This document shows positions 4,829 to 14,360 of a stretch of 64,000 nt of DNA, one piece after another. The stretch covers positions 372,001-436,000 of the forward strand of contig NZ_JMKT01000009.1 in the NCBI RefSeq assembly GCF_000686525.1, in the 5' to 3' direction. Source of the DNA: Desulfonatronovibrio hydrogenovorans DSM 9292 (lineage in GTDB: Bacteria > Desulfobacterota > Desulfovibrionia > Desulfovibrionales > Desulfonatronovibrionaceae). The position numbers and the translations under genes are program-made. The notes beneath the pieces were generated by a model. That model was not told the DNA's origin. It was given only the letters and a program-made list of their open reading frames with translations, and did no database searches. How positions within the stretch are numbered: position 1 is the stretch's first letter; the number at the start of each line of letters is the position of its first letter.

Positions 4829-5283
4829 CTTACTCCAGAATATAAGATAGTTGTCCTGGCATCAAACCAGTTGAGTCCTTACAGGTTCTACGCTCCAACC
4901 CGGCTAAGGCATCAGCGCCGGACCCTGGAGCGATCCTGGTCAGGGATGCATCTATCTAGCTGTATGCGGCTTTGGCCAGTCTCTGGGCGCCAGGACACAA
5001 GCTAATGGTACCGGGCTGGTTTACGGAATTTTAAAAAACATTCCCATATATTTTTCCAGTAAATGTTTAACTGTCTCTGGTTATCCATGTCAACTCAGCC
5101 CCTGTCAAAATTTATATTTTCCAACCTGTTAGAAAAACCTGAACTCATTTTCTCCCAAATGAAAACATAGCAGTCTGACAGGGGAAATTCATGACCTTTA
5201 CCCGGGACAAGGCTTTCCAGGCCTGGTCACCATGATCAAAAAGAGTCTCTGACCCGGAATAAATTGCAAGTTAGAGATAAATA
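4829..5283. other. Intergenic region with hairpin and a copy of the integron promoter block
   Basis: No convincing gene in 455 bases. It holds a GC-rich inverted repeat at 4891-4932 (outer arms CGCTCCA and TGGAGCG, inner arms CCGGC and GCCGG), attC-like in shape but without good core sites. It also holds the diverged copy (5022-5126) of the block that lies between attI and intI. The rest shows nothing I can name. Confidence 0.5.
5022..5126 (-). repeat. Diverged copy A of the attI-adjacent Pc block
   Basis: Colinear with copy B at 12672-12777: ACGGAATT (5023-5030), ATATTTTTCCA (5048-5058), TGTCAACTCA (5088-5097) and ATATTTTCCAAC (5114-5125) occur in the same order and nearly the same spacing, with only single-base indels. 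By eye roughly 70% of bases match. On the minus strand the shared TGAGTTGACA supplies a TTGACA -35 box with TTAAAC 17 bases on, pointing leftward into the DUF523 gene. I read it as a relic or second Pc/attI region. The similarity is seen; the interpretation is inferred. Confidence 0.65.
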
Positions 5284-7349: not shown

Positions 7350-7685
7350 TTAATAAATACAAGCATCCAATATCGACAGGACTTCAGACAATAGCTCATC
7401 GTTCCGTCGCTGGATGCGTTTAACACGACGGGCATGGAAATCAACTGATTTCACTTGCTCAACCATGACGAAACCGGTCAACTTGCTTGCTTTTGGAATA
7501 GGTACATGGAAAGGAAATCCGCGATCTGTATTTGTAATAGGACATACAATAGCCAAACCTGTGCTGCTATTGAACAGATCCTTGCTGACGACCAACGCCG
7601 GACGGCGTCCTTTTTGTTCATGACCAGCTTGCGGATCAAAAGTAATGGCAATCAAGTCTCCTTGTTCGGGAATATAGATTGCCAT
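7350..7685 (-). CDS. mazF: MazF/PemK family mRNA-interferase toxin
   Basis: A 111-residue protein of normal MazF length. It starts MAIYIPEQGDLIAITFDPQA and has the family block GHEQKGRRPALVVSK, followed by the CPITN strand and the MVEQVKSVDF segment that form the RNA-binding face. MazF toxins cleave mRNA at short motifs to arrest growth until neutralised by MazE. Its ATG immediately follows the mazE stop codon (TAAATG), so translation is coupled. It sits in an integron cassette, where toxin-antitoxin pairs are thought to stabilise arrays against deletion. Confidence 0.94.
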   Translation of the reverse strand: MAIYIPEQGDLIAITFDPQAGHEQKGRRPALVVSKDLFNSSTGLAIVCPITNTDRGFPFHVPIPKASKLTGFVMVEQVKSVDFHARRVKRIQRRNDELLSEVLSILDACIY

Positions 7686-7934
7686 TTACCAGACCTCTTT
7701 TCCGGCTGGTTTCCCCCAATCTGTTTCTTTAGTTTGGTAACCTTTGGGAATTTTCGCCACAAGATCCTTGAGATTATATTTTCTTCGGGTTCTCTGGGCT
7801 GGGGTGACGATTAAGGCACCATCTTTTACAGTGACATTGACGTCATCGCCTACATTTATTTGTGCGTCTGATAGTAATGTCTTTGTAATACGGAGACCTT
7901 GGCTGTTCCCCCATTTTTGAATTTTTGCAAGCAT
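7686..7934 (-). CDS. mazE: MazE family antitoxin (AbrB/SpoVT DNA-binding fold)
   Basis: An 82-residue protein. The N-terminus MLAKIQKWGNSQGLRITK is the SpoVT/AbrB swapped-hairpin DNA-binding domain of MazE antitoxins; the charged C-terminal tail (TKETDWGKPAGKEVW) is the expected toxin-binding segment. It binds MazF and represses the shared promoter. I start at the ATG at 7934, preceded by GGAGG at suitable spacing, rather than the TTG five codons upstream, which would overlap that site. The next gene, mazF, begins at the following base. Confidence 0.93.
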   Translation of the reverse strand: MLAKIQKWGNSQGLRITKTLLSDAQINVGDDVNVTVKDGALIVTPAQRTRRKYNLKDLVAKIPKGYQTKETDWGKPAGKEVW

Positions 7935-7950
7935 ATGATCACCTCCCAAT

Positions 7951-8061: not shown

Positions 8062-8765
8062 GCTTTGTTCGGCTCTTGATCACTTTCTCGGCTTCCAATA
8101 ACCTGGTTTCCGATGCAGATTCATCTTTCATGGGTCGGACCTAACCATCATCCTTAAATATCAGGATAAACCCAGTGAAATCTCTTACTATTTCACCGGG
8201 GTATGCCATACATGATCAGGTAAAAAAAATCTGTTGGCTCTGGGCATATTTGCTTACAACTGGTTTTTGAGCATTGAAATGGGCGTTCTAAGGCCAATTA
8301 TAGACTCTATAGAAGATATTTATACAATCAACTCAATAACTTGATAGGTCCGACCCCATAAGAGACAAGAGACTTGAGAAACTTGTGTTGTTAACACGCC
8401 ACTTCTTCCTTTACACTAGGACGACAGGTTCTCATGTTCCGTACTAAAGCCTGCCCTGAATTCATGCCACCTCCATGCCGGCTGCCGCTTCGCCCGTAGC
8501 CAAATATCGTCGAAACTTGTCCCGGAAATACGCTCGTTCCCCGGTTTTGACAGCATTTATCCATATCGACACCTCATCAGTGGTTCATTTGCATTCATCT
8601 CTTCAGGCCGTACCTGACAGATTCATTTCTGCCTTTTCCCTATCACTCACGACAACTACTCTTAATAATTGCCGCATAGGGCGGTTTGGTTCCAGTATCT
8701 GGATACCGAAACCGAGGGGCCTACCCTCATCTTTAATACAGCTAGGAAGACTATTGTCTTCCGTC
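8062..8765. other. Cassette 5: no convincing protein gene
   Basis: About 700 bases flanked by attC sites. Minus-strand frames are short, the longest recognisably protein-like one being a 40-codon stretch ending near 8463. A plus-strand frame (8475-8915) exists but runs into the antisense of the methyltransferase gene and has no ribosome site. The DNA between 8380 and 8700 is GC-balanced and looks non-random, so it may be a decayed gene, a non-coding RNA or a truncated retroelement. I could not identify it. Confidence 0.5.
8131..8356. repeat. 12-bp inverted repeat pair, REPIN- or MITE-like
   Basis: GGGTCGGACCTA (8132-8143) and its exact complement TAGGTCCGACCC (8345-8356) bracket about 200 AT-rich bases in cassette 5. 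Each arm is itself nearly palindromic (GGTCGGACC). This resembles paired REP sequences or ends of a tiny element; no transposase is present. Confidence 0.45.
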
Positions 8766-9509: not shown

Positions 9510-10283
9510 CTACCTAACACAGTCTGTTTGCAGCGGATCAGTGCAAGTAGGCAGCAGATGATTGCGACGGCGAGACGTCTCTTCCAGTTCAACCAGAACG
9601 TGTTTTTCCAGTGCAGTGAGGGCCAGGAACACGTGCTGAAGCCTGTTCTGTCCATATTCTGACTGAACCAGATAGTCGGAGAAATCCCCAAAAGAGATGT
9701 CACCGGACCTTTCCTCAACAGGAGAATACGCGCGTAGGGCCTCTACAAGCTCCGGCAGACCGGACCGTCGACTGAAGTGGGCCATATCGTCCTTCATCTT
9801 GGCCGACAGAGTTCCGGAGTGGATAGAGGCAAACTCATCAAGAGCGGCAGCGGCGTCCACGAATGCATCCGCGGATGAGGCGGAGAATTGGTGCGCTTCC
9901 GAGCATGGCTTGTTGATAAACCTCTGAATCAGCTCGTCGCTTGACAAGACTGGAGTTCGATCAAAGGATGATGGTGGCATGCATAACAAATGCTTTTTCA
10001 ATGATTCAATTGAAGTGTCGACCCGCTGCAAGACCAAGTTCTGAGCCGTCAGCTGAGCCAATGCTTCAGAGTTTTCCTTTGAACTGGTCAAGATTACCTG
10101 CGCGATCGCGATTACGGCAGCAAGGGCAACAACCCCGAACTGCGATGCCCCCACCTTCGTGAGCCGCTTGTTCTCTGTCGCGGGGCCCAGCATTGCAAGC
10201 GCGGCTGCTGCGGCAGTAAGCAGCGCCGCTATGACCGCAAGCGCAGAGCCCAAGCCAACCCCTAGAAAATAAAATTCTTGCAT
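9510..10283 (-). CDS. Two-TM membrane protein of unknown function (integron cassette 3)
   Basis: A 257-residue protein with two N-terminal hydrophobic segments (about residues 5-33 and 46-66), so anchored in the inner membrane with a roughly 190-residue soluble domain. That domain is mostly helical by composition, rich in Ala, Ser and Leu, with no motif I recognise. I start at the ATG at 10283, which has AGGTGG upstream, three codons inside the longest frame. It is a single-gene cassette bounded by two good attC sites. Its size and topology would suit an effector of a defence or stress module, but nothing in the sequence proves that. Confidence 0.75.
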   Translation of the reverse strand: MQEFYFLGVGLGSALAVIAALLTAAAAALAMLGPATENKRLTKVGASQFGVVALAAVIAIAQVILTSSKENSEALAQLTAQNLVLQRVDTSIESLKKHLLCMPPSSFDRTPVLSSDELIQRFINKPCSEAHQFSASSADAFVDAAAALDEFASIHSGTLSAKMKDDMAHFSRRSGLPELVEALRAYSPVEERSGDISFGDFSDYLVQSEYGQNRLQHVFLALTALEKHVLVELEETSRRRNHLLPTCTDPLQTDCVR

Positions 10284-10337
10284 TCTAACCACCTAATAGC
10301 GCAAGCCATTTGTTTTGGTGATGGGGCATGATCGGTT

Positions 10338-10416: not shown

Positions 10417-11157
10417 TCACTTCTGGATTCTCGGAGACAGCTTTTCGATTTCTTCATTAACATGCTTCTTTAGCATTCCGAATGGAGCAGGTAAATCCCT
10501 GGCGGGAACCTGTGGTTCGGCCATATTCATAACATGAAAGCGCCAAATTGAAGTGCTAATATTATTGTGCAGTCCCATTAAAGCCAGCAATGATTCTGGC
10601 GATCTTGCTTCTAAAAACAAGCTTTTAGGCACAGAAATACGTTCTTTTCCAGACCCATTGTATAGCTTTGTGAAAAAACGAGAGATCGTATCATTTGACG
10701 GAGGACGTGAAACCTTTAAAAGATTGTCCCGGAATCCACAAAGTATCACTAAGTCTGTATAAAAGTATCTAACACTAAAATCCTGAGCTGCATCGATTTC
10801 AATCAAAATCACGCCGCCACCGACCCCTTCACCATATGGAGAAAGTTCCAAACCAAAATATTTAATCTGGTCAATAGTCGGTCTCAATATTCGCTTATGA
10901 ATATTCCAGTTAGTAGTGCCAGCCCCCTTCATTACCGTTTTAAGCTGTGTTTTTACGACCAGGTCGTGGTCGTCGAAAATCATATCGAATCCATCCTGAT
11001 CAACTTCAGGAAGGTAAACGTTAAGAAAGTAACCCCGATTTGCAGCTGCAAGCTTAAGATCAAATAGAAGTTTGTTATTTATAAGTGATTCTTTTCCATG
11101 GCTATTTGATGCATCAAAAAAGAATCTTTCCAACTGTGATCTGTTATTAGGACTCAA
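10417..11157 (-). CDS. PD-(D/E)xK-nuclease-like protein (integron cassette 2)
   Basis: A 246-residue protein with no close family that I recognise. The N-terminal half has Asp58 in DGFDMIF and, 13 residues on, the TQLK segment (Gln71, Lys73). The order acidic residue, short strand pair, then Q-x-K after a strand fits a PD-(D/E)xK fold with Gln replacing Glu, as in DUF4365-type proteins. A preceding helix with conserved-looking acidic residues also fits. The C-terminal half is unassigned. Start is TTG at 11157 with AGGTGG nearby; no ATG lies upstream. Nuclease activity is a hypothesis only. Confidence 0.65.
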   Translation of the reverse strand: MSPNNRSQLERFFFDASNSHGKESLINNKLLFDLKLAAANRGYFLNVYLPEVDQDGFDMIFDDHDLVVKTQLKTVMKGAGTTNWNIHKRILRPTIDQIKYFGLELSPYGEGVGGGVILIEIDAAQDFSVRYFYTDLVILCGFRDNLLKVSRPPSNDTISRFFTKLYNGSGKERISVPKSLFLEARSPESLLALMGLHNNISTSIWRFHVMNMAEPQVPARDLPAPFGMLKKHVNEEIEKLSPRIQK

Positions 11158-11302: not shown

Positions 11303-11365
11303 GCCTAACGCCCGGCTTAACCGGCGCCGGCTTTGCCGGCGTCCGTGTTGAAGCCGTTGTTAGAT
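11303..11365 (-). other. attC site between cassettes 1 and 2
   Basis: Plus strand GCCTAAC (11303-11309) and GTTAGAT (11359-11365), both perfect matches to the consensus cores. Between them CGGCTT/AAGCCG and the inner CGCCGGC/GCCGGCG around TTT form the usual long hairpin. It begins six bases after the stop codon of the winged-helix gene. Confidence 0.93.
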
Positions 11366-11371
11366 GCCATT

Positions 11372-11893
11372 TCAACGGCGCAGCGATAGAAGATGCTTCA
11401 CGCCGTCCTGAGATACTCGTTTGTAGGAAATCTTGCTCGGTTTTCGGGTTTGAAAGATCAGCTTCTTGCGCTCGATTTGTTTTAAAGTCGACGATGCATT
11501 GGAGAGCTTTATTCCGTGATCGGACAGAAACTTCGTAACTTCAGAGGTCTTAAACTCATTCCCTTCCGACTTGCTTTGTACAAAGTATGCAGTGATGAGG
11601 GCCTTTTCCTGATCAGATATATCGTCTCTGAACGAGTGGAGCCATTCCCCAAAAACTTCGGGTACATTGAGCGAGCCGGCCTGTTCGTCAGTCTCTGAAT
11701 TGACACTGGAGGCTTCATTAACAGGTTCTTCCAACGGCTGACCGCTATTTGCCTGTGCGGCGGCGGGCGCACGTCCGATCGTGGCAAGCAGCTCTTCCAA
11801 ATTGGCTAGTTGCTCTGTAACAAAAGCCTCAGAGCCTTCGAGCCGAATCTCCCCACTGTTTAGATTGATACTAACGACTGCTTTTTCCGACAT
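11372..11893 (-). CDS. Winged-helix partner protein of the HEPN-like gene (integron cassette 1)
   Basis: A 173-residue protein in three parts. Residues 1-37 hold a short strand-rich block, VVSINLNSGEIRLEGSEAFV; residues 40-75 are a low-complexity linker rich in Ala, Glu and Ser; residues 95-170 look like a winged helix (ALITAYFVQ, TSEVTKFLSDHGIKL, then a basic hairpin). That C-terminal domain resembles the N-terminal domain of the upstream HEPN-like protein, so the two are probably functionally linked. Eleven bases separate the genes and no attC lies between them, making a two-gene cassette. The basic end suggests nucleic-acid binding; function unknown. Confidence 0.75.
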   Translation of the reverse strand: MSEKAVVSINLNSGEIRLEGSEAFVTEQLANLEELLATIGRAPAAAQANSGQPLEEPVNEASSVNSETDEQAGSLNVPEVFGEWLHSFRDDISDQEKALITAYFVQSKSEGNEFKTSEVTKFLSDHGIKLSNASSTLKQIERKKLIFQTRKPSKISYKRVSQDGVKHLLSLRR

Positions 11894-11904
11894 TATCTAC
11901 TCCC

Positions 11905-12636
11905 TTATCTCAGTATGCCTGCTTTGTAGAGCAACTCTTCGATACAGGCACGATAATCCTGCTTAACTGCCTGCAAATCTGCACGCTTTGCGTTGTAGTG
12001 GATCTTGTGAGCTGAGAAATTGCCCAGCGTTCGGAATATTTCCAAACAGGTCTTCGTGTTTCTCGATAGTGCCAACGTTTGATTTACAGACGCATTCGAC
12101 ACTATTGCCTGTAGCAATTTATAGTTTCCATCGCTGTCTTTAATTTCAGATGCGATCCCTAATTTCTCGTAAGAAAGGATTAAACAAATCTCCAATAGTC
12201 TACGCATAAGTACTGCGCATCCATCAAAGATATTGCTCTCATAAGATGCATTTATTTGATCAGCGAGCTTTTCAATGTAACCACGCGTTGAGCGGTACAA
12301 AGACTCTGGCAGCACTTCCTCATCATGTAGAATTTCTTCCGACTTTGATCCTACAGTCGGAAGTTGGCTTTGTATTTCTCGAAGTTTTGTTGCGTGAATC
12401 TTGAATGAGCCTGGTGATCCGCCATTTACAAAAGCGCGCTCCTGACGCATCCGCTTAGCTAAGCGCGACTGATTTGGACGAGAAAAGTGTAATTCTTCGA
12501 ATAGCGCAGTCAAATCAGCTACGGAAACTGCCGACCGGCCCCGATCTTTCAACAAGTAGTAGCTCAAGTATAGGCTCTTCTGAAGCTCTGTCTTGGACTC
12601 AAGGTCGGCCATTTCAGAAAATTGCTGCAAGTTCAT
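11905..12636 (-). CDS. wHTH-HEPN (DUF4145-like) protein, first gene of cassette 1
   Basis: A 243-residue protein. Residues 15-90 look like a winged-helix domain (YLSYYLLKDRG, VADLTALFEELHF, RLAKRMRQERAF). Residues 110-240 resemble the HEPN-like DUF4145 domain: FDGCAVLMRRLLEICLIL is the usual long helix, and FRTLGNFSAH gives the R-x2-G-N-x3-H signature (Arg202, His210). HEPN proteins are often RNases or helper subunits in toxin-antitoxin, abortive-infection and CRISPR systems. As the first gene after attI it would be driven by Pc. Domain calls are by eye; activity is inferred. Confidence 0.72.
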   Translation of the reverse strand: MNLQQFSEMADLESKTELQKSLYLSYYLLKDRGRSAVSVADLTALFEELHFSRPNQSRLAKRMRQERAFVNGGSPGSFKIHATKLREIQSQLPTVGSKSEEILHDEEVLPESLYRSTRGYIEKLADQINASYESNIFDGCAVLMRRLLEICLILSYEKLGIASEIKDSDGNYKLLQAIVSNASVNQTLALSRNTKTCLEIFRTLGNFSAHKIHYNAKRADLQAVKQDYRACIEELLYKAGILR

Positions 12637-12654
12637 CGACTGATCTCATCTGGC

Positions 12655-12661
12655 ATCTAAC
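12655..12661 (-). other. attI crossover core
   Basis: Plus strand ATCTAAC (minus strand GTTAGAT, a perfect GTTRRRY) lies between the first cassette gene and intI. The same GTTAGATGCC string recurs in the first attC at 11359, consistent with cassette 1 having been joined here. Recombination would fall between bases 12660 and 12661. Confidence 0.8.
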
Positions 12662-12671
12662 AATGTTATTA

Positions 12672-12777
12672 TACGGAATTCAAAAAAAATACTCTTACAT
12701 ATTTTTCCAAAAATTAATTAACAATTTCTTGTATTTTCTGTCAACTCAATCCCTTATCAAAAATCATATTTTCCAAC
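12672..12777 (-). repeat. Copy B of the attI-adjacent block
   Basis: AT-rich block between attI and intI that shares ACGGAATT (12673), ATATTTTTCCA (12699), TGTCAACTCA (12739) and ATATTTTCCAAC (12766) with copy A at 5022-5126 in the same order and spacing. It contains the Pc candidate. Confidence 0.65.
12716..12744 (-). promoter_or_regulatory. Candidate cassette promoter Pc
   Basis: On the minus strand TTGACA (12739-12744) is followed after 17 bases by TTAATT (12716-12721), pointing through attI into cassette 1. The -35 box is perfect and lies in the segment conserved with copy A; the -10 is weak. A TATAAT at 12668-12673 nearer attI could be an alternative -10 but lacks a good -35. Confidence 0.5.
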
Positions 12778-12805: not shown

Positions 12806-12895
12806 TTGACGACCAGGTCAGCTTTATGCTTATATTGAGGTTATCCTTATGCAGCAGTGGCCTAAAAGCCCTGTAATTTTGAGCATAAAGCTGAC
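12806..12895 (+). promoter_or_regulatory. intI promoter candidate with 14-bp inverted repeat
   Basis: TTGACG (12806-12811) and TATATT (12831-12836) are 19 bases apart on the plus strand. The spacer contains GTCAGCTTTATGCT (12817-12830), whose exact complement AGCATAAAGCTGAC lies at 12882-12895, just before the preferred intI start. The pair looks like a bipartite operator or a 5'-leader structure. No LexA-type box was recognised. Confidence 0.45.
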
Positions 12896-12908
12896 TTCGG
12901 AGCTACCC

Positions 12909-14360
12909 ATGGATGAAACTGTGATTATTTTTGACGACTGGGAAAAGGTCTTGAAAGCCAGTGTTCCTCCAGATCGTTACCGAGCATATCGGGAAGCCAT
13001 AGTCAAATTCCGGTACTGGCTCCGGAAAACCGGCAAATCACCACATGCTGCCATCTTTAAGCAGCACCTGGCCTGGAAGAAATCTTATCTTGCCCCTGAC
13101 ATCTTTATGATCCGGCAGGAAGCGTTGCGCTGGTATTATCTGGAAGGTCGCAAGCGTACGCTGGAAGGGGCATCATCGTCTGGAATAACAGAAGCCGGTG
13201 TTGATAATCATGCTTCAAGGTCAAGCTATACACCTGACAATGAAACAAATCCGGTTCAACCTCCCTATACAAAGAAACATTCAACAGGAATCACCCCAAA
13301 GGTCGGTGAATATCGTGTATATTCCAGGAATAACCTGCCCGGGCCAGCAGCACCTGATCTTGGTGGGCCGGAATGGGAGCAGAAATTGGTCAGGCGCCTT
13401 CGGGAAAAGAATATGGCCTGGAACAGTGAGAAAACGTATCGATCATGGTGCAGGCGGTTCATCATGTCGGTTGACGCCAAGCCTCTTGCTGAGCTGGATC
13501 ACCATGATGTCCGCCTCTGGTTGTCCGACTTGGCCGTCAAAGAGAGTGTTGCCGCAGCTACTCAGGCTCAGGCGTTAAATGCCGTGGTTTTCTTCTTTCG
13601 TGAAGTATTGCAGCGCGATCCCGGAGACTTCAGTGATTTTTCCAGAGCGCGGCGCGGTCGAAAGATACCCAGCGTCCTGTCGCCAGGCGAATGCAAAAGA
13701 CTTTTTAATGCCATGGACGGAACCTATCGCCTTATGGCTGAACTGATGTACGCGGCCGGGTTACGATTATCCGAACTTTTGCGGCTGCGGGTCAAGGACG
13801 TGGACCTGGAACGCCTCCAGCTTGCCGTACAGTTTGGCAAGGGGAACAAGAGCAGGTACACCATGATTCCACCTCAGCTTGTGCAGCGGTTGCAAAAGCA
13901 TCGTGAACGGCTGCGGATCCTGCACAAAAAAGATCGTCAGGCCGCTCTGGCAGGCGTTGAACTGCCTGGAGCGCTGGAACGCAAGTGGCCCAGAGCCGGG
14001 GAAAAATTCACCTGGTTCTGGTTCTGGCCTTCGCGCAATCTGATGCGGGACCATCGCCACGGAATCATCCGTAGACACCATGTGCTGGATGCGACGTTTC
14101 AGAAAGCAATCCGCATGGCCGCAAACAGGGCACAGATTGATAAACGCGTCACGCCGCACACCCTGCGCCACAGCTTTGCAACCCATCTTCTGGCCAGCGG
14201 AACCGGGATCCGGGACCTGCAGGATCTGCTGGGCCATGCAGACATCTCCACAACCCAGATCTATCTGCACACCGCCAAACAGACCGGTATCGGCGTGCGC
14301 AGCCCGTTTGAGCTGCTTGCAGATCATCCCGGCTCCCAGAATGATGACCAAGCTCATTAG
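12909..14360 (+). CDS. intI: Integron integrase (IntI) with an extra N-terminal domain
   Basis: Tyrosine recombinase of 483 residues from this ATG, against about 320-340 for ordinary IntI. Counting from the longer frame at 12849, catalytic residues are Arg306 (AAGLRLSE), Lys331/334 (GKGNK), His437-x2-Arg440 (PHTLRHSF), His463 (LLGHAD) and Tyr472 (IYLH). The IntI-specific insert is clear at about 369-410 (LPGALERKWP to GIIRRHH), as is GVRSPFELL at the end. A normal core-binding domain spans 173-260; residues 29-100 look like a second, degenerate one (DWEKVLKASVPPDRYRAYRE), joined by a linker. It recombines attI and attC. I prefer the ATG at 12909 (GGAG upstream, beyond the promoter); 12849 is possible. 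Confidence 0.93.
   Translation: MDETVIIFDDWEKVLKASVPPDRYRAYREAIVKFRYWLRKTGKSPHAAIFKQHLAWKKSYLAPDIFMIRQEALRWYYLEGRKRTLEGASSSGITEAGVDNHASRSSYTPDNETNPVQPPYTKKHSTGITPKVGEYRVYSRNNLPGPAAPDLGGPEWEQKLVRRLREKNMAWNSEKTYRSWCRRFIMSVDAKPLAELDHHDVRLWLSDLAVKESVAAATQAQALNAVVFFFREVLQRDPGDFSDFSRARRGRKIPSVLSPGECKRLFNAMDGTYRLMAELMYAAGLRLSELLRLRVKDVDLERLQLAVQFGKGNKSRYTMIPPQLVQRLQKHRERLRILHKKDRQAALAGVELPGALERKWPRAGEKFTWFWFWPSRNLMRDHRHGIIRRHHVLDATFQKAIRMAANRAQIDKRVTPHTLRHSFATHLLASGTGIRDLQDLLGHADISTTQIYLHTAKQTGIGVRSPFELLADHPGSQNDDQAH

Follow-up and report, generated by a model that had tools for sequence, protein, structure and literature searches.

The window analyzed here (a 64,000-nucleotide stretch of contig NZ_JMKT01000009.1 from Desulfonatronovibrio hydrogenovorans DSM 9292) contains a gene encoding an integron-integrase, intI, which lies to the right of two small genes, A and B, and is transcribed divergently from them (Table 1). 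The core site GTTAGATGCC between intI and gene A reads as attI because no attC site precedes it, and the core sites, attC1 and adjoining intI therefore place A and B in cassette 1 of the array. The structure is that of integron cassettes, with the integrase beside attI and the ORFs bounded by core sites and a folding attC. A relaxed scan found attC1 as a 63-nt site at 11303-11365 (a single comparable site turned up in one of 20 Markov shuffles); a strict scan for attC sites with complementary 10-nt ends returned no sites. Further attC-like stretches with hairpins run on down to approximately 7.1 kb of the window. A preliminary description of this DNA had proposed a tightly spaced two-gene cassette at 11372-12636, located first in the array. 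Both ORFs were recovered exactly as described, co-directional on the minus strand and separated by 11 bp, and theirs is indeed the first cassette after attI. As a general rule, the first cassette of an integron is the most highly expressed. A scan for a Pc promoter returned nothing above chance and was no better than shuffles. The genome from which the window comes (G000) carries gene A only once.

Table 1. Features of the first cassette and the adjoining integrase gene, in window coordinates.
Feature	Position	Strand	Basis
intI, integron-integrase, 503 aa	12849..14360	+	TIGR02249, 364 bits (cut-off 265); Pfam Phage_integrase
attI core site GTTAGATGCC	12652..12661	-	Sequence; no preceding attC; left edge of L002 DNA similarity at ~12662
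Cassette 1, first of array	11309..12660	-	Core sites, attC1, integrase
Gene A, winged helix + HEPN/DUF4145-like (predicted), 243 aa	11905..12636	-	ORF, AlphaFold2 (AF2), Foldseek
Winged helix of A, aa 17-91	12364..12588	-	AF2; hhalign to winged helix of B
Predicted HEPN domain of A, aa 111-238	11923..12306	-	AF2; Foldseek; relatives above DUF4145 cut-off
Motif R202-T-L-G205-N206-F-S-A-H210 of A	12007..12033	-	Alignment of 19 relatives
RBS AAGGGAG of gene B	11900-11906	-	Sequence, shortly before B start codon
Gene B, tag + winged-helix partner, 173 aa	11372..11893	-	ORF, AF2, Foldseek
Beta-beta-alpha tag of B, aa 3-40	11774..11887	-	AF2 secondary structure, low-to-moderate confidence
Winged helix of B, aa 81-172	11378..11653	-	AF2; Foldseek
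attC1, attC of cassette 1	11303..11368	-	Hairpin -22.8 kcal/mol, outer arms paired

A related pair occurs in Mangrovitalea sediminis (locus L002), where A and B are 79% and 72% identical, respectively, to those of the window. The DNA similarity between the two copies (69% over 1327 bp, window 12662 to 11357) begins and ends at the core sites GTTAGATGCC and GGCATCTAAC. Together with the adjoining intI and the attC1 hairpin, these boundaries uphold the earlier proposal that the genes are packaged as a portable cassette. A and B show non-synonymous divergences (dN, NG86) of 0.15 and 0.21, respectively, and dS is too large to estimate; both genes thus appear to be constrained. The L002 genome encodes an integron-integrase above the cut-off on the same contig, approximately 170 kb away. 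Little of the attC remains in the Mangrovitalea copy. When the loci of relatives were scanned for attC, no site was found in L002, L043, L048, L057 or L077.

Predicted folds and the HEPN motif

The AlphaFold2 model of A (mean pLDDT 90.7) consists of a winged helix followed by a helical bundle. In Foldseek searches, the best PDB match of this bundle was the HEPN protein 2hsb (probability 1.00, TM-score 0.75 of target, r.m.s.d. 2.5), and 2q00, the HEPN toxin 7ae6 and Csm6 were also among the matches. Since the Foldseek E-values are weak (1.7e-2 at best), the assignment relies on the probability, the TM-score and homologues that pass the DUF4145 threshold. A itself scores 13.5 bits against DUF4145 (PF13643), below the cut-off of 23.1, which is exceeded by its homologues at L012 (24.6 bits), L015 (25.5), L043 (30.3), L047 (26.2) and L003 (26.1). 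The C-terminal domain of A is accordingly modelled as a HEPN fold, the feature on which the preliminary description had staked its reading. No PADLOC, NCBIfam or Pfam model matched A or B above cut-off. A structural search of viral proteins (BFVD) returned nothing convincing, and a sequence search of the PDB gave only a globin match, which we attribute to chance.

In the model of B (pLDDT 72), a disordered linker connects the tag, modelled over residues 5-40, to the winged helix. The consensus of the tag, INLxxGEIRxEGSxxFVxEQ, is conserved across 12 B-type proteins, and the winged helix matches winged-helix structures with a Foldseek probability of 1.00. By profile comparison, the winged helix of A resembles that of B (hhalign probability 81.7, E = 1.1e-5), while the HEPN domain of A against B, used as a negative control, gave 1.4%. 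The models and alignments bear out the earlier view that this domain is common to both proteins. B had no match in PADLOC. The tag looks similar by eye to the C-terminal tail of DUF5343, yet hhalign assigns this comparison a probability of only 0.7%, and homology between the two is therefore not claimed.

The motif of A needs a different reading from the one first given to it. The R-x2-G-N-x3-H string previously noted as a HEPN-type signature is present at R202-H210, but it is not the canonical Rx4-6H motif of HEPN enzymes, in which the Arg is typically followed directly by N, D or H (PMC3710099). Across 19 aligned A-type members, H210 is invariant, position 206 is N, D or H in all 19, position 202 is R or K in 18, and position 205 is G in 17 and A in the remaining two. 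By aligning this region with Rx4-6H, we infer that position 205 corresponds to the canonical Arg site, now occupied by Gly or Ala; counting from R202 instead gives Rx7H. A is thus not classed as a canonical Rx4-6H RNase, and the R-x2-G-N-x3-H string alone does not predict RNase activity because the canonical Arg position is Gly or Ala in 19/19 members. Judging from its sequence, the HEPN domain of A may bind RNA without cutting it. R145, E149 and R229 are also invariant in the 19-member alignment. Compensating residues have been proposed for other HEPN families that lack the Arg (PMC3710099), and by analogy these three residues, together with the basic residue at position 202, could compensate for its loss in A.

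Distribution and pairing

A-type loci are rare and patchy, occurring in 8 of 297 genomes of the window's phylum, 7 of 321 of the class of genome G297 and 4 of 346 of the phylum of genome G298. Most A-type relatives lie outside integrons. Some of them are found in restriction-modification (R-M) settings: L015 is inside a type I R-M operon, between hsdS and hsdR, L014 adjoins an NgoMIV restriction enzyme and methyltransferase, and L027, on a viral contig, adjoins a type II methyltransferase. Other viral contigs carry members near phage integrases (L028 and L029) or just ahead of terminase-like genes (L011). These R-M and phage neighbourhoods are individual loci, and many other A-type loci have ordinary housekeeping neighbours. 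A role in defence would be consistent with the relatives located in R-M operons and phages. The L011 protein had no match among 50,697 annotated phage records, and a search of plasmids with A returned one weak match only, in Halorubrum (E = 8e-3); plasmid searches with B and with the L015 and L003 proteins returned no matches.

Each of the 19 intact A-type genes lies next to a partner gene of winged-helix type, with gaps ranging from -20 to +23 bp. The pair does therefore co-occur elsewhere, the point on which the preliminary description had proposed that its reading be judged. The pairs are of three types. Type 1 pairs (the window, L002, L003, L011, L012, L043, L050 and L051) combine an A with winged helix and HEPN domain with either a B-type or a zinc-ribbon/winged-helix partner. 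Type 2 pairs (L013, L014, L015, L016, L027, L029, L044, L046 and L049) consist of a short HEPN protein and a DUF5343-type partner; PF17278 was above cut-off in both type 2 partners tested, and seven of seven DUF5343 partners tested match the PADLOC candidate PDC-M34A (E = 5e-9 to 3e-14). In type 3 pairs (L028 and L047), the partner is another small protein that is winged-helix-like by sequence pattern only. Outside the 19 intact genes are L045 (A truncated and partnerless), L017 and L018 (fragments) and L048 (B intact, A broken). The HEPN gene comes first only in the window and L002; in the other 23 pairs listed, the partner is upstream. Across distant genomes, among them those of unrelated bacteria and phages, the pairing is near-obligate.

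The reverse search, with B profiles against the same genome samples, yielded 14 genomes with a match. A HEPN or HEPN-like gene lies beside B in ten of these, A-type in four (one broken) and a second family in six (L057, L073, L074, L075, L077 and L079). Proteins of this second family are approximately 250 aa long, with an invariant R110-N111-x-R113-x3-H117 motif (Rx6H) and a C-terminal winged-helix-like region. They match no Pfam family above cut-off, and we describe them as HEPN-like on the basis of the motif and weak Abi_C matches rather than fold. At L078 (4018-6883), genes for a ParA-like ATPase and for a protein with a RelA_SpoT domain (62.6 bits, with a weak PDC-S33 match) come after two B-like winged-helix genes, possibly making up a related module with an alarmone-type effector. 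No obvious partner was seen next to the B-type gene in L076, L080 and L081. The B family thus partners HEPN-like proteins mostly, but not exclusively. The weak B matches at L075 and L081 have a helical N-terminus in place of the tag.

Comparison with described systems

A shares its predicted fold and the GN..AH region with the DUF4145/HEPN superfamily (PF13643), whose members are often linked to R-M systems (PMC3710099). It differs in having Gly at the Arg position of Rx4-6H, a fused N-terminal winged helix and a dedicated winged-helix gene alongside. The PADLOC candidate PDC-M34 includes a DUF5343 component (PDC-M34A), and nine short A-type HEPN genes have DUF5343-type partners, of which all seven tested match PDC-M34A. 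The B of the window has no PDC-M34A match, and none of the PDC-M34 models is matched by A. This candidate is itself a prediction only, and a literature search found no paper on DUF5343 or PDC-M34. A-type HEPN domains also weakly match residues ~330-412 of PD-Lambda-5_A (E = 3e-4 for L027 and 0.006-0.02 for others). PD-lambda-5 is a validated defence system, described as a compact combination of R-M and abortive infection that includes a methyltransferase (PMC9519451), while the cassette has no methyltransferase.

Fusion of a winged helix to a HEPN domain is shared with the CoCoNuT effector CnuE, in which the HEPN domain is joined to the C-terminus of the winged helix and which depends for its setting on a helicase, CnuH, and genes of McrBC type, with which it works (PMC11090510). 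The cassette contains A and B only, with no CnuH helicase or McrBC genes. HEPN-MNT toxin-antitoxin systems likewise consist of two small genes, a HEPN protein and a controller, but B is a winged-helix protein rather than a nucleotidyltransferase, and the gene order is reversed in the window. A and B are two adjacent, co-directional small genes, as in type II toxin-antitoxin systems. Most toxin-antitoxin pairs are antitoxin-first, an order that differs from that of the window and L002, in both of which the HEPN gene leads.

Interpretation

A and B probably constitute a small switch, of immune or toxin type, that has no earlier description. On balance, we lean towards cassette 1 being a mobile two-gene unit of a HEPN effector and a winged-helix controller, which would operate in the manner of an abortive-infection or toxin-antitoxin switch. 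A would be the effector and would target RNA through its C-terminal HEPN domain; the N-terminal winged helix would couple A to B and/or to nucleic acid. B would be the controller, in which the tag and winged helix restrain or aim A. Signals from phage or foreign DNA would lead B, as a putative inhibitor or sensor, to release or activate A, and active A would then stop growth of the infected cell. The predicted HEPN fold, the pairing seen from both sides, the R-M and phage neighbourhoods, the matches to PDC-M34A and PD-Lambda-5_A, the patchy distribution and the apparent constraint on both proteins speak for this model. Gly or Ala at the canonical Arg position, the lack of above-threshold model matches for A and B themselves, the housekeeping neighbours of many loci and the effector-first order in the window speak against it. 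The gene anatomy, predicted folds, cassette boundaries and mobility, pairing and neighbourhoods are features of the loci themselves, to which this model adds putative catalysis by A, putative neutralization by B and a putative trigger.

The preferred explanation and its rivals overlap, and the likelihoods given to them need not sum to one. It appears unlikely that the pair is a classical type II toxin-antitoxin cassette that stabilizes the array, with A as the toxin, B as antitoxin and autorepressor, and no dedicated role against phages. Stabilizing toxin-antitoxin cassettes are common in chromosomal integrons, and a MazEF cassette is present in the same array; two small, tightly spaced genes encoding a HEPN protein and a DNA-binding-type partner would suit this explanation, as would the one B-type gene near a RelA/SpoT-domain protein. 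Against this stand the leading position of A in the window and the location of most relatives outside integrons, several of them in R-M operons or phages, where array stabilization is not the point. An origin as phage cargo, in which the pair is primarily a superinfection-exclusion module of phages or prophages that was captured as a cassette, is distinctly improbable: although four members are on viral contigs (L011, L027, L028 and L029), most are on bacterial contigs with no phage genes in view, and the L011 protein is unmatched among the phage records searched.

The altered motif bears on the possibility that the HEPN RNase site has been lost and that A and B form a nucleic-acid-binding complex regulating transcription or translation, much as inactive MtlR-type HEPN proteins have been proposed to be regulators (PMC3710099). 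Gly or Ala at the canonical Arg position in all 19 members and the two winged helices per pair both argue for such a regulator, which we nevertheless regard as improbable. Invariance of H210, R145, E149 and R229, with N, D or H at position 206 throughout and a basic residue at 202 in 18 of 19, is unusual for a dead site, and the same B family also serves HEPN-like proteins whose Rx6H motif is intact.

Returning to the switch model, we tentatively raise a broader version that is rather more doubtful than the switch itself. The cassette could belong to a class of modular two-gene immune systems, as yet undescribed, with a single family of tag and winged-helix controllers serving at least two HEPN effector families, one DUF4145-like with an altered active site and the other with canonical Rx6H. 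The winged helices would act as a nucleic-acid sensor that fires the effector, and the class would move as integron cassettes, inserts in R-M operons and phage cargo. Chromosomal integrons are a known store of anti-phage cassettes (PMC12409362), to which a compact two-gene HEPN system would be added if the switch model is correct. The pair could also serve, on a small scale, to test whether HEPN domains of DUF4145 type with Gly at the usual catalytic Arg position act as RNases or bind RNA. Given that pairing was seen from both sides, more members could be found by searching with the B-type controller and not with the HEPN gene alone.

Further features of the array and related loci

Ahead of its first matched domain, the integron-integrase has an N-terminal extension of approximately 175 aa (12849-13380, plus strand). 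A second copy of the attI-side region 12672-12777 lies on the same strand at 5022-5125 (74% over 106 bp, E = 2e-11) and is perhaps a relic attI past the far end of the array. The proteins encoded by cassettes 2 and 3 (10417-11157 and 9510-10292, both on the minus strand) gave no above-threshold match to families of Pfam, NCBIfam, PADLOC or PHROGs. The MazEF toxin-antitoxin cassette is at 7350-7949 on the minus strand (PemK_toxin 96.5 bits, MazE 31.0 bits). At 8612-8728 on the minus strand, RF01999 (group II intron) scores 109.9 bits beside an attC-like sequence, the kind of site at which group IIC-attC introns lie. At L048 (5373-6684), the intact B and broken A adjoin transposase-like ORFs and three 280-bp repeats that are nearly identical.
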